Assembly: GCA_017860295.1 (NCBI GenBank)
Contig: JAFNAS010000013.1
Span: 1-64,000, forward strand
Direction: 5' to 3'
DNA: 64,000 nucleotides
Source of the DNA: Bacteroidota bacterium
Lineage (GTDB): Bacteria > Bacteroidota > Bacteroidia > Bacteroidales > Paludibacteraceae
Positions 57,843 to 63,203 of this stretch are shown here, in pieces (the stretch's first letter is position 1; the number at the start of each line of letters is the position of its first letter). Under the pieces are notes generated by a model. It had not been told where the DNA came from. It worked only from the letters and a program-made list of their open reading frames with translations, and did not search any database. Made by a program: the position numbers and the translations under genes.

Positions 57843-58715
57843 TTAGCAAGCCTCTACCTCTTTGTTGATCTTTTTAACCAGACCCTGCAGCACGGCACCC
57901 GGTCCCAGTTCGCGGAAACTGGTAGCGCCGTCGGCAATCATATTCTGTACGGTCTGTGTCCAGCGTACCGGAGAGGTCAGCTGTGCGATCAGGTTTTGTT
58001 TGATCACTTCCGGATCGGTTTGCGGCTGTGCGTTTACATTCTGATATACGGGACAGATCGGAGTTGCGAACTTCGTATTGGCAATAGCCTGTTCCAGCTC
58101 CACGCGGGCAGGTTCCATCAACGGAGAGTGGAACGCGCCACCTACCGAAAGTACCAAAGCGCGGCGGGCACCGGCCTCTTTTGCCAAATCACATGCTTTC
58201 TGAATTGCTTCAATTTCGCCGGAGATAACCAACTGACCCGGACAGTTGTAGTTGGCCGGAACCACGATGCCATCTACCGCAGCACAAATCTCTTCCACTT
58301 TGGTATCGTCGAGACCCAGCACGGCAGCCATGGTCGACGGTTGTTTTTCGCACGCTTTCTGCATAGCCTGAGCACGGGCCGAAACCAGCTTCAAACCATC
58401 TTCGAACGAGAGAGCTCCGGCAGCAACCAGGGCAGAGAATTCGCCCAGCGAGTGGCCGGCGGTCATATCGGGTGTAAAGTCGGCACCCAATGTTTTAGCC
58501 ATAATGACCGAGTGAAGAAAAACGGCGGGTTGTGTTACTTTGGTCTGGCGAAGATCTTCGTCGGTACCGGCAAACATCAGATCGGTGATGCGGAATCCCA
58601 GAATTTCGTTTGCTTTTTCAAACAACTCTTTTGCAAGCGGATTGCTATCATACAAATCTTTGCCCATTCCTACAAACTGGGCACCCTGGCCGGGAAATAC
58701 ATACGCTTTTTTCAT
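57843..58715 (-). CDS. fabD: Malonyl-CoA-ACP transacylase
   Basis: YVFPGQGAQFVGMGKDLYD; GHSLGEFSALVAAGAL; GGAFHSPLMEPA. Confidence 0.96.
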   Translation of the reverse strand: MKKAYVFPGQGAQFVGMGKDLYDSNPLAKELFEKANEILGFRITDLMFAGTDEDLRQTKVTQPAVFLHSVIMAKTLGADFTPDMTAGHSLGEFSALVAAGALSFEDGLKLVSARAQAMQKACEKQPSTMAAVLGLDDTKVEEICAAVDGIVVPANYNCPGQLVISGEIEAIQKACDLAKEAGARRALVLSVGGAFHSPLMEPARVELEQAIANTKFATPICPVYQNVNAQPQTDPEVIKQNLIAQLTSPVRWTQTVQNMIADGATSFRELGPGAVLQGLVKKINKEVEAC

Positions 58716-58941: not shown

Positions 58942-58949
58942 CAAAGATA
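58942..58949 (-). promoter_or_regulatory. Bacteroidetes -7 promoter motif TATCTTTG, candidate fabD promoter
   Basis: Minus strand GAGTATCTTTGCGCC upstream of fabD. Confidence 0.45.
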
Positions 58950-59052: not shown

Positions 59053-59304
59053 TGCCCCGACTCTACCGGGGGGTGCCCCGAATGTTTCGGGGAATGTTCC
59101 GGCTCTTTCGGGGAGAACCCCGGTTCTTTCGTGGAATGTTCCGGATGTTTCGGGGGATGCCCCGGCTCTCTCGGGGATTGCCCCGGCTCTTTCGGGGATT
59201 GCCCCGGAAGTTTCGGGGAATGTTCCGGTTCTTTTGAGGATTGCCCCGGAAGTTTCGGGGAAAGCCCCGGTTGCTTCGGGGAAAACCCCGAATGTTTCGG
59301 GGAG
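59053..59304. repeat. 12 x 21-bp tandem array of CCCCG-N7-CGGGG hairpins
   Basis: 12 units of exactly 21 bp, e.g. TGCCCCGGAAGTTTCGGGGAA, TGCCCCGGCTCTTTCGGGGAT, TGCCCCGAATGTTTCGGGGAA. Confidence 0.95.
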
Positions 59305-59557
59305 GTCAACCAATCCTCTGTGTTATTCATTGTTTTTTTACGTAATGCAACTGCTAAAAAATAATACATGAATTAATGCTATTTAATGTATTATGAGAAA
59401 ATAGTTGTAGATTTGGGGCGTGAAAGCAAACAACCTCATTGTTTAATAAATGGAGCATAAGACGATTACGTGCTACACGAAAGAGCAGGATAACCGGACG
59501 AGGGAGCGAATGTAAAAAGAAAAAATAGGAGAAAAGCCGCTGGCCGGGGTTGGGAGC

Positions 59558-60538
59558 ATGGCGACGGTGACTGTTTGCTTTCAGGGTTCCCCAAAATCAG
59601 CAATGCATGGCATGGCCACACGATACGCTGCGCTAATCGTGCGGCAGCCGAGGTATCCTGAAAAGACTCACAAGGATAATATTTACACGAGTGATATTGT
59701 AGATGAGGGAGAATCTTATTGGAAAGGAATTGATGATCTTTTCAAAACAAGGCTAAAATGCGCTAACGTATATTATGCAGATGGACAAATGAGTATTACA
59801 ACGTCCAACCATAATTGGGATAATAATGTTGAAAAATCGATGGCGAAATTTTATTGTAGCGCTAAAGGAGTAATTGATCTTGTTCCTTCCTCTTGGCAAG
59901 AGGCCGGTCTTAAGTACGGATCAAATATAATAGAATTGATGCCCATAGTGGGAGCTTCTATTGAAATTCCACTGGTGCTAACCGATGTGGTTTGTAATAA
60001 TTCGCCACATCTAAACACGGAATCCAACATTGATGGCTTTAATACTCGGCGACAGGCTGGTGCCAATAGTGCGGGAACTGCATTTTTGAAGAAATTGATG
60101 GCAAATCCTAACATTGCCAAAAACAGTGATGGCTTTATTACCGACACCCTCGACATTGTTTGTCACAGCATGGGGTATGCTTACGCGCTGGGAATGATTG
60201 ATTATTTAAAAGGGAAGGTTACCTTTGGACGGCTTTATATCATTGCCCCCGAAAATGCAGGTGTAGGTGGTACGGATTGGACACAGTTCTCCGAAGTTTG
60301 GCAATACGGAAGCGATGAAAACAAAGATCCTATTAGCAAACAAGATGGAATTGCACCACAGGTGCCTTGTCCGGGTATTCCTAATTTACCTACGAATAAA
60401 GGTGGCCGTGCCTACATTCCTCAGAATGGCACAGTAAAAAGAGGTTTTTATAGTTCGCATTCGATCGGAAATTATAAATGGATATTTGATATTAAACCAA
60501 CAGATCAAAAACCAGAAGGATATGTTAAATCGAGGTAA
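59558..60538 (+). CDS. Putative alpha/beta-hydrolase (lipase-like) orphan effector domain; N-terminus derived from a repeat
   Basis: DIVCHSMGYAYALG nucleophile-elbow-like motif; first about 34 codons match a dispersed repeat also at 63231-63308. Confidence 0.55.
   Translation: MATVTVCFQGSPKSAMHGMATRYAALIVRQPRYPEKTHKDNIYTSDIVDEGESYWKGIDDLFKTRLKCANVYYADGQMSITTSNHNWDNNVEKSMAKFYCSAKGVIDLVPSSWQEAGLKYGSNIIELMPIVGASIEIPLVLTDVVCNNSPHLNTESNIDGFNTRRQAGANSAGTAFLKKLMANPNIAKNSDGFITDTLDIVCHSMGYAYALGMIDYLKGKVTFGRLYIIAPENAGVGGTDWTQFSEVWQYGSDENKDPISKQDGIAPQVPCPGIPNLPTNKGGRAYIPQNGTVKRGFYSSHSIGNYKWIFDIKPTDQKPEGYVKSR
59571..59655 (+). repeat. Palindromic repeat family 2, copy 1
   Basis: CCAAAATCAGCAATGCATGGCATGGCCACACGATACGCTGCGCTAATCGTGCGGCAGCCGAGGTAT. 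Confidence 0.85.
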
Positions 60539-61339: not shown

Positions 61340-61882
61340 ATGAACATTCAACATAGAATTAACGGAAAGGTTTATTTTGTCACAACAACCGTTGTTGACT
61401 GGATGGATATTTTTACAAGACCTGTGTATAAGCATGTCATACTGGAATCATAGATCTACTGCATCGAGAACAAAGGAATGGAGATATACGCGTGGGTACT
61501 AATGACCAATCATTTGCATTGTCTCATTGGTGTTACCGGATAACACTCAGTATCCGACATCATGCGGGATCTCAAGAAGTATACCAGCAAGAAATTAATA
61601 CACACGATACAGCATGAGCCAACCGAAAGCCGCCGGGAATGGATGCTTGATAAATTTGAATTTAGCGGTCGCAATGATAAAAAAATAAAGAATTGTAGAT
61701 TCTGGCAAGAGGGAACAGACATACAAGAAGTATTTCTAAATGATTATTTCGAACAAAAAATGGAGTATATACACAACAACCCGGTAAAAGCGGAAATCGT
61801 AACATTGCCTCATGAGTACCGCTACAGTTCGGCTATTGACTATGCCGGAGGCAAAGGACTTATCCCGGTAGTAGTGGTATGA
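61340..61882 (+). pseudogene. RAYT/Y1 (IS200-like) transposase with two in-frame stops
   Basis: MNIQHRINGKVYFVTTTVVDWMDIFTRPVYKHVILES*...WVLMTNHLHCLIGVTG*...MEYIHNNPVKAEIVTLPHEYRYSSAIDYAGGKG; TAG 61451, TAA 61541. Confidence 0.88.
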
Positions 61883-62567: not shown

Positions 62568-62614
62568 CTCGGTTGCCGCACGATTAGCGCAGCGTATCGT
62601 GTGGCCAAACCATA
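62566..62614 (-). repeat. Palindromic repeat family 2, copy 2 (inverted)
   Basis: Reverse complement GGCCACACGATACGCTGCGCTAATCGTGCGGCAACCGAGG. Confidence 0.85.
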
Positions 62615-62648
62615 CGGTAGAGCAACCTTAAAAGTAAAAAGCATACCA

Positions 62649-63203
62649 ATGAGTCGTAATTACAAATTTTACAATCCCAAAGGAGTCTATTTCATCAGTT
62701 TTGCTGTGGTGGGATGGTTAGATGTTTTTACGCGCAACGAGTACAAAAATATTGTTATAGATAGTCTTGCCTATTGCCAAAAGAACAAAGGATTGGAAAT
62801 ATTTGCATGGTGCATTATGACAAATCATGTGCATCTTATTTTTAGAAGTATTGGAGAGCGGGCTCCTGAAGGCATTGTGGGCGATTTCAAGCGATTTACA
62901 AGTAAAGCTATTGTCAAGACCATAACAGATAATCAACAAGAGAGTAGGAAAGAGTTTTTACTGAATGAATTTGAAAAGGCCGCACAAGCATCTTCCAATG
63001 TCATGAAGTATCAATTTTGGAGGCATGACAATAAACCGATAGAATTATGGAGCAATAAGGTTATTGCTGAAAAAATCAACTATATCCACAATAATCCGGT
63101 AGAAGAAGGGTATGTTTTCAGACCCGAAGATTATTTATATAGTAGTGCTGTCGATTATGCCGGAGGCAAAGGTATACTGGATGATGTAATAGTAACCAAG
63201 TAA
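62649..63203 (+). CDS. RAYT (REP-associated tyrosine transposase), intact
   Basis: MSRNYKFYNPKGVYFISFAVVGWLDVFTRNEYKNIVID...WCIMTNHVHLIFR...INYIHNNPVEEGYVFRPEDYLYSSAVDYAGGKG; ORF-track start 62601. Confidence 0.9.
   Translation: MSRNYKFYNPKGVYFISFAVVGWLDVFTRNEYKNIVIDSLAYCQKNKGLEIFAWCIMTNHVHLIFRSIGERAPEGIVGDFKRFTSKAIVKTITDNQQESRKEFLLNEFEKAAQASSNVMKYQFWRHDNKPIELWSNKVIAEKINYIHNNPVEEGYVFRPEDYLYSSAVDYAGGKGILDDVIVTK

Follow-up and report, generated by a model that had tools for sequence, protein, structure and literature searches.

A phased 21-bp tandem array in a Paludibacteraceae genome and related arrays upstream of DxF genes in Bacteroidota

Introduction

Short repeats arranged in tandem upstream of genes are familiar from several bacterial systems. 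Iteron and centromere arrays, such as plasmid parC and the replication iterons, are helically phased, protein-bound repeats upstream of a gene, while the antitoxins of known type III toxin-antitoxin systems are built from repeats of roughly 35-45 nt. In Porphyromonas gingivalis, the minisatellite/MITE BrickBuilt, a single sequence family present up to 19 times, is made of tandem 23-nt units and possesses a leader, a tail and terminal inverted repeats (PMC4596501). Here we analyse a stretch of 64,000 nucleotides (referred to as the window) from a Bacteroidota bacterium of the Paludibacteraceae, which carries a tandem array of 21-bp units, and we compare this array with others in the same genome, its genus and the phylum.

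Results

The window array consists of 252 bp in 12 contiguous, indel-free units of 21 bp (Table 1). TRF assigned it to 59053-59303 with a period of 21, 12.0 copies, 0% indels and a score of 201, along with higher-order periods of 42 and 63 bp, and 12 of 12 units kept register when the array was cut into 21-mers. Both results bear out the preliminary description of twelve hairpin-type units without spacers, and its exclusion of a CRISPR also holds, the units being contiguous and spacers absent. Perfect CCCCG/CGGGG arms are found in 8 of the 12 units; among the arm variants, TTCCG occurs in units 3, 5 and 9, CGTGG in unit 4, and TGAGG also in unit 9. The statistic for the 21-bp period reached z = 19.4, whereas no period exceeded 3.8-4.2 when the orthologous intergenic regions of the three congeners were scored. 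As a single strand, the array is predicted to fold more stably than dinucleotide shuffles, whether as RNA (z = -4.3) or as DNA (z = -4.4). It matched no Rfam family, and a blastn search against plasmids and phages returned no match.

Table 1. Features of the window around the tandem array
Feature	Position	Strand	Basis
fabD-like acyltransferase gene, left neighbour	57843..58715	-	Pfam Acyl_transf_1, E 9.9e-46
TAnnTTTG-type -7 box TATCTTTG before fabD, 104 bp from array	58942..58949	-	read from sequence; putative
12 x 21-bp tandem array	59053..59304	+	consensus TGCCCCGGATCTTTCGGGGAA; TRF, in-register units, sister-array match
Second TAnnTTTG-type -7 box TAGATTTG, opposite orientation, 104 bp from array	59408..59415	+	read from sequence; putative
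Right neighbour, detached C-terminus (whole protein 1415 aa in a Paludibacter MAG), not DxF	59558..60538	+	sequence match

The fabD-like gene on the left occurs throughout the genus (8 of 8 genomes). The two boxes flanking the array were called with the consensus TAnnTTTG, which we take to be that of Bacteroidota promoters; the TATCTTTG box is kept in the congeners G001, G003 and G007, and the TAGATTTG block likewise. (The CAAAGATA block of the fabD region, which the MAFFT alignment misplaces, was placed by eye.) In all three congeners the fabD intergenic region contains both TAnnTTTG-like boxes and lacks the array. Either this genome has therefore acquired the array or the congeners have lost it, in each case between a divergent pair of promoter-like boxes, and since the congeners do without it at this site the window copy may be functionless.

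On the other side, the right neighbour is 83% identical in its best segment to the 1415-aa Paludibacter protein. The segment 59558-61223 as a whole contains two ORFs that match the C-terminal end of this FnIII-containing protein and the gene that follows it (L014), and the missing 5′ part suggests a rearranged module. A Y1_Tnp (RAYT-like) transposase gene lies at 62601-63203 (Pfam E 1.3e-8), 3.3 kb from the array, and an ORF at 61562-61882 resembles the C-terminal part of another Y1_Tnp copy. Copies of an element translating as ATRYAALIVRQPRY lie near 59600, 62500 and 63214; this element could be the REP palindrome matching the Y1_Tnp gene.

Elsewhere in the same genome the array alone recurs, without its flanks, on contig C21. 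The aligned part of this sister array (C21:165641-165892) is 73% identical to the window array over 252 bp, and 14 units can be read there in register. A loose two-unit hairpin pattern produced 9 matches per strand in this genome, all within the two arrays, and its reversed control produced none. The genome-wide pattern search recommended in the preliminary description thus uncovered a second array at home and none related among 295 genomes of the order, where the hairpin-array pattern matched only this genome and G474; the G474 matches belong to an unrelated dispersed repeat and were rejected as relatives. About 75 bp downstream of the sister array begins a gene of 223 aa (MMKTNDFVPRSDTKFNIWQNNLI...), the sense strand of which corresponds to the plus strand of the window. 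A similar array from a different genus (G019:C81) precedes a gene whose start is homologous to that of the C21 gene, and another G019 array precedes a truncated start, MERERNFIPSNDS, read by eye. The homologous gene starts after the C21 and G019 arrays allowed us to recognise a gene family, named DxF here. No DxF match was found anywhere in the window. The window array shares the non-coding 21-bp tandem period of the arrays that precede DxF genes, as its sister on C21 does, and lacks their position; of all units compared, the one it most resembles is the unit of the array at the C21 DxF gene (similarity 0.84), and by this shared unit we place it in the class as a putative solo relative.

The association between arrays and DxF genes extends well beyond this genome. 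We examined 61 DxF loci, drawn from several families of the phylum. The top upstream tandem period was 21 bp at 54 of them and 22 bp at another 5, all five of the latter belonging to one genome (G029), and 56 of the 61 had strong upstream arrays. In a first set of 42 loci, in which periods of 15-30 were scanned and z > 8 was counted as strong, the strongest upstream period was 21 in 36, 22 in 5 and another in 1, with z > 8 at 38 loci. In a second set of 19 previously unused loci, fetched afterwards from one genus, not all independent, and scanned for periods of 12-40, period 21 was strongest in 18 (z 7.6-25), as compared to 0 of 17 downstream controls. In 20 of the neighbourhoods, the remaining genes with a length of 150 aa or more had such an array upstream in only 1 of 176 cases (Fisher 3e-23 versus DxF). 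No other period approached 21 in strength in a 470-kb scan, a sample chosen around DxF genes. The distance from array to ATG has a median of 98 bp. In a divergent relative of 240-265 aa the array is absent from 4 of 5 full-length members, and in G019 some units measure 20 bp, making the register imperfect there. The G029 arrays of period 22 (L077, L085, L089, L096 and L099) stop only about 15-40 bp short of the start codon.

The DxF protein itself is uncharacterised. It is predicted to comprise N-terminal helices and a C-terminal FnIII domain: its AlphaFold model (pLDDT 90) places helices at the N-terminus and a beta domain at the C-terminus, and Foldseek matched the latter to FnIII domains. 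Against PDB folds the N-terminal domain returned nothing at E < 1, fold comparison matched no known DNA-binding fold, and searches of Pfam, NCBIfam and PADLOC yielded no family. Weak PHROGs matches to tail fibres in three members probably come through FnIII, and no DxF proteins were found in plasmids and phages, one of the queries being a 75-aa piece. DxF genes occurred in 10 of 61 genomes from the family, in 5 of 299 from the phylum and in 17 of 48 belonging to one genus, frequently in several copies per genome. Their loci share no conserved neighbour genes, and array and DxF therefore form a stand-alone cassette.

What is constant in the class is the period, about two helical turns, and not the sequence. 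Unit sequences are unrelated between most DxF loci and shared in part by close homologues. They can differ wholly at 84-89% DxF protein identity, even within one genome; for example, the paralogues L076 and L094 are 89% identical in protein and their units have a similarity of 0.17. Some homologues from different genomes do share units, as in L166/L169 (0.93) and L158/L165 (0.89). The preliminary description had remarked that a 21-bp unit would set every site on the same face of the DNA, and this proved apt for the class, since a period of 21 (or 22) is the sole feature common to about 56 arrays with mostly unrelated sequences.

Dyad symmetry is a frequent rather than a general property of these arrays. 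A whole-unit dyad count gave no signal (2 of 38 arrays, combined p 0.40). A run-based score, devised after that negative result and more sensitive to stem-like arms, gave p < 0.05 in 26 of 53 arrays, with a combined p of about 1e-17; for the window array alone it gave p = 0.09. The palindromic units of the preliminary description are therefore common in the class by the run-based measure, but not universal, and invisible to the whole-unit count. Mismatches within the dyads were G.T in 361 cases and A.C in 346, showing no sense-strand wobble bias, and dyads of this kind favour DNA sites over RNA hairpins. Together with the lack of an Rfam match, this equality disfavours the structured RNA that had also been proposed. 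Curvature by phased AA/TT tracts was not enriched (4 of 53 arrays).

We also asked whether the arrays encode protein. The ORFs across the window array had been regarded as artefactual unless an SPKxPGx frame should prove conserved with synonymous bias, and no such frame was found by pN/pS. Among the units of the window array and its sister the ratio lay between 0.65 and 2.2 in the six frames, none of which was low in both arrays, and none shows purifying selection; the SPKxPG heptad frame is moreover interrupted by a TAA in the sister array. Long open frames do cross the window array on both strands, as would be expected of a coding repeat made up of SPKxPGx or CPGSFGE heptads, but given these ratios, the interrupted sister frame and the stops in all frames of the 22-bp relatives we find that reading scarcely credible. 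All sense frames are stopped in 12 of 38 strong arrays, including every 22-bp array, which excludes a general coding role.

Other arrays also stand apart from DxF. Degenerate 21-bp arrays with ACCT-AGGT dyads lie between divergent genes upstream of cobB in G003 (L156, z 10.1) and G001 (L155, z 5.7, weak), where DxF is absent; the site is the orthologue of the C21 site, at which the genome of the window has a different 21-bp array and DxF. More arrays without a detected DxF gene occur in G019 and G651, some of them at the ends of contigs or of the examined stretches. Solo arrays of this kind could be relics, or could still function by themselves. In G019 alone, a leader of about 180 bp is common to several arrays, namely the mixed-unit arrays on C127, C101 and C81; a TTCATTCTTCACT-type repeat stands at many contig ends of this genome. 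A different repeat in G651 (L140, 5970-6390), which translates as EIPAYAGMTVMIPQ and includes a masked stretch, falls outside the 21-bp class.

Discussion

The reading we favour, with about even confidence, is that the window array is a gene-less member of a non-coding class of arrays, phased at 21 bp (rarely 22 bp) and as a rule lying some 100 bp upstream of DxF, and that these arrays most likely act at the DNA level through cooperative protein binding. Successive units would present a short, often dyad-symmetric site on one helical face, a protein would bind cooperatively along the array, and the bound array would control or mark the neighbouring promoter or promoters; the window copy would do so between two divergent -7-like boxes. 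Class membership, period, position, lack of coding and sequence turnover are observed directly in the sequences; protein binding, the partner and any regulatory effect on DxF or on neighbouring genes we infer, with period and dyads as indirect evidence, and this partner may or may not be DxF. Several observations sit uneasily with such a mechanism: full unit change at 84-89% protein identity is unexpected if one sequence-specific protein binds, 22 bp is slightly off two helix turns, DxF matched no known DNA-binding fold, one of the two dyad tests was negative and the positive one was devised later, and the congeners lack an array at the window site.

The same turnover would fit a purely mutational origin, in which a process linked to DxF or to its insertion duplicates 21-bp segments and arrays of one period repeatedly arise from unrelated sequence, with no function of their own. 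A period that stays constant while the sequence is replaced, even between the paralogues L076 and L094, and the existence of solo arrays are both in keeping with this idea, but the near-universal upstream presence and the units shared across genomes suggest retention, and units that have diverged by 20-30% still keep exact register; we consider such an origin unlikely, if worth serious thought. The turnover could also reflect a self-renewing cassette of DxF and array, where a process tied to the gene rebuilds two-turn repeats at each locus from unrelated sequence, making the period heritable but not the sequence, and where solo arrays are offspring or remains; this proposal we hold only tentatively, as an improbable one.

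A different possibility is that the array acts as RNA together with DxF in the manner of a type III toxin-antitoxin system, the transcribed units binding the protein encoded downstream and the window copy being a stray. The placement of the tandem repeats just ahead of a stand-alone gene, together with a patchy, multi-copy distribution, recalls such systems, as do the short distances to the start codon in G029 and the stable fold of the window array. The balance of G.T and A.C mismatches, however, reveals no sense-strand preference for wobble pairs, no toxin was matched in PADLOC or Pfam and no family in Rfam, the predicted DxF fold is one of helices and FnIII, and 21-nt units are shorter than known type III antitoxins, which makes the RNA reading rather unlikely in our judgement. 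Less probable by far is an ordinary minisatellite on a MITE-like element, as in BrickBuilt. Its strengths are the intergenic, spacer-less tandem repeat, the leader common to several G019 arrays and the empty site in congeners; but the flanks of the window array are not repeated in its own genome, terminal inverted repeats are not established, and the class is united by period and gene rather than by sequence. Of these readings, cooperative binding at the DNA level remains the one we prefer.

Our search, which covered mainly the open-access literature, found no published description of such arrays. The class is thus apparently undescribed, and we claim newness for the class and not for the solo window copy. 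Its conserved property is a spacing of two helix turns, tied to one undescribed protein family across several families of Bacteroidota. None of the families in the libraries searched accommodates the class; it would escape homology searches, and its degenerate members escape repeat finders. What binds, or makes, a 21-bp ladder before DxF is a question that can be tested in cultured Bacteroidota.

Comparison with described systems shows partial likeness in each case. Like the type III systems ToxIN, CptIN and TenpIN, the class has tandem repeats immediately in front of a small gene that stands alone; its repeats are shorter, however, DxF is of FnIII type, the RNA pairing constraint is not seen, no ToxN, CptN or TenpN toxin was found with PADLOC or Pfam, and the window copy has no gene. 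Iteron and centromere arrays offer helically phased repeats upstream of a gene, which in our arrays would likewise be bound by protein, but DxF loci are chromosomal, their neighbours are not conserved and no ParR, ParM or Rep homologue was found. REP and BIME sequences with their RAYTs resemble the window array in having intergenic palindromic units of about 20 bp, and a RAYT-like gene lies nearby; REPs are dispersed, however, rather than strictly phased in tandem, and elsewhere in the class the arrays accompany DxF rather than RAYTs. Finally, BrickBuilt, the closest published case in Bacteroidales, shares with the window array its occurrence in Bacteroidales, an intergenic position and spacer-less units of about two helix turns, but the window unit measures 21 bp and does not belong to the 23-nt family, and in the class described here it is the sequence that varies, while the period and the association with DxF are constant.
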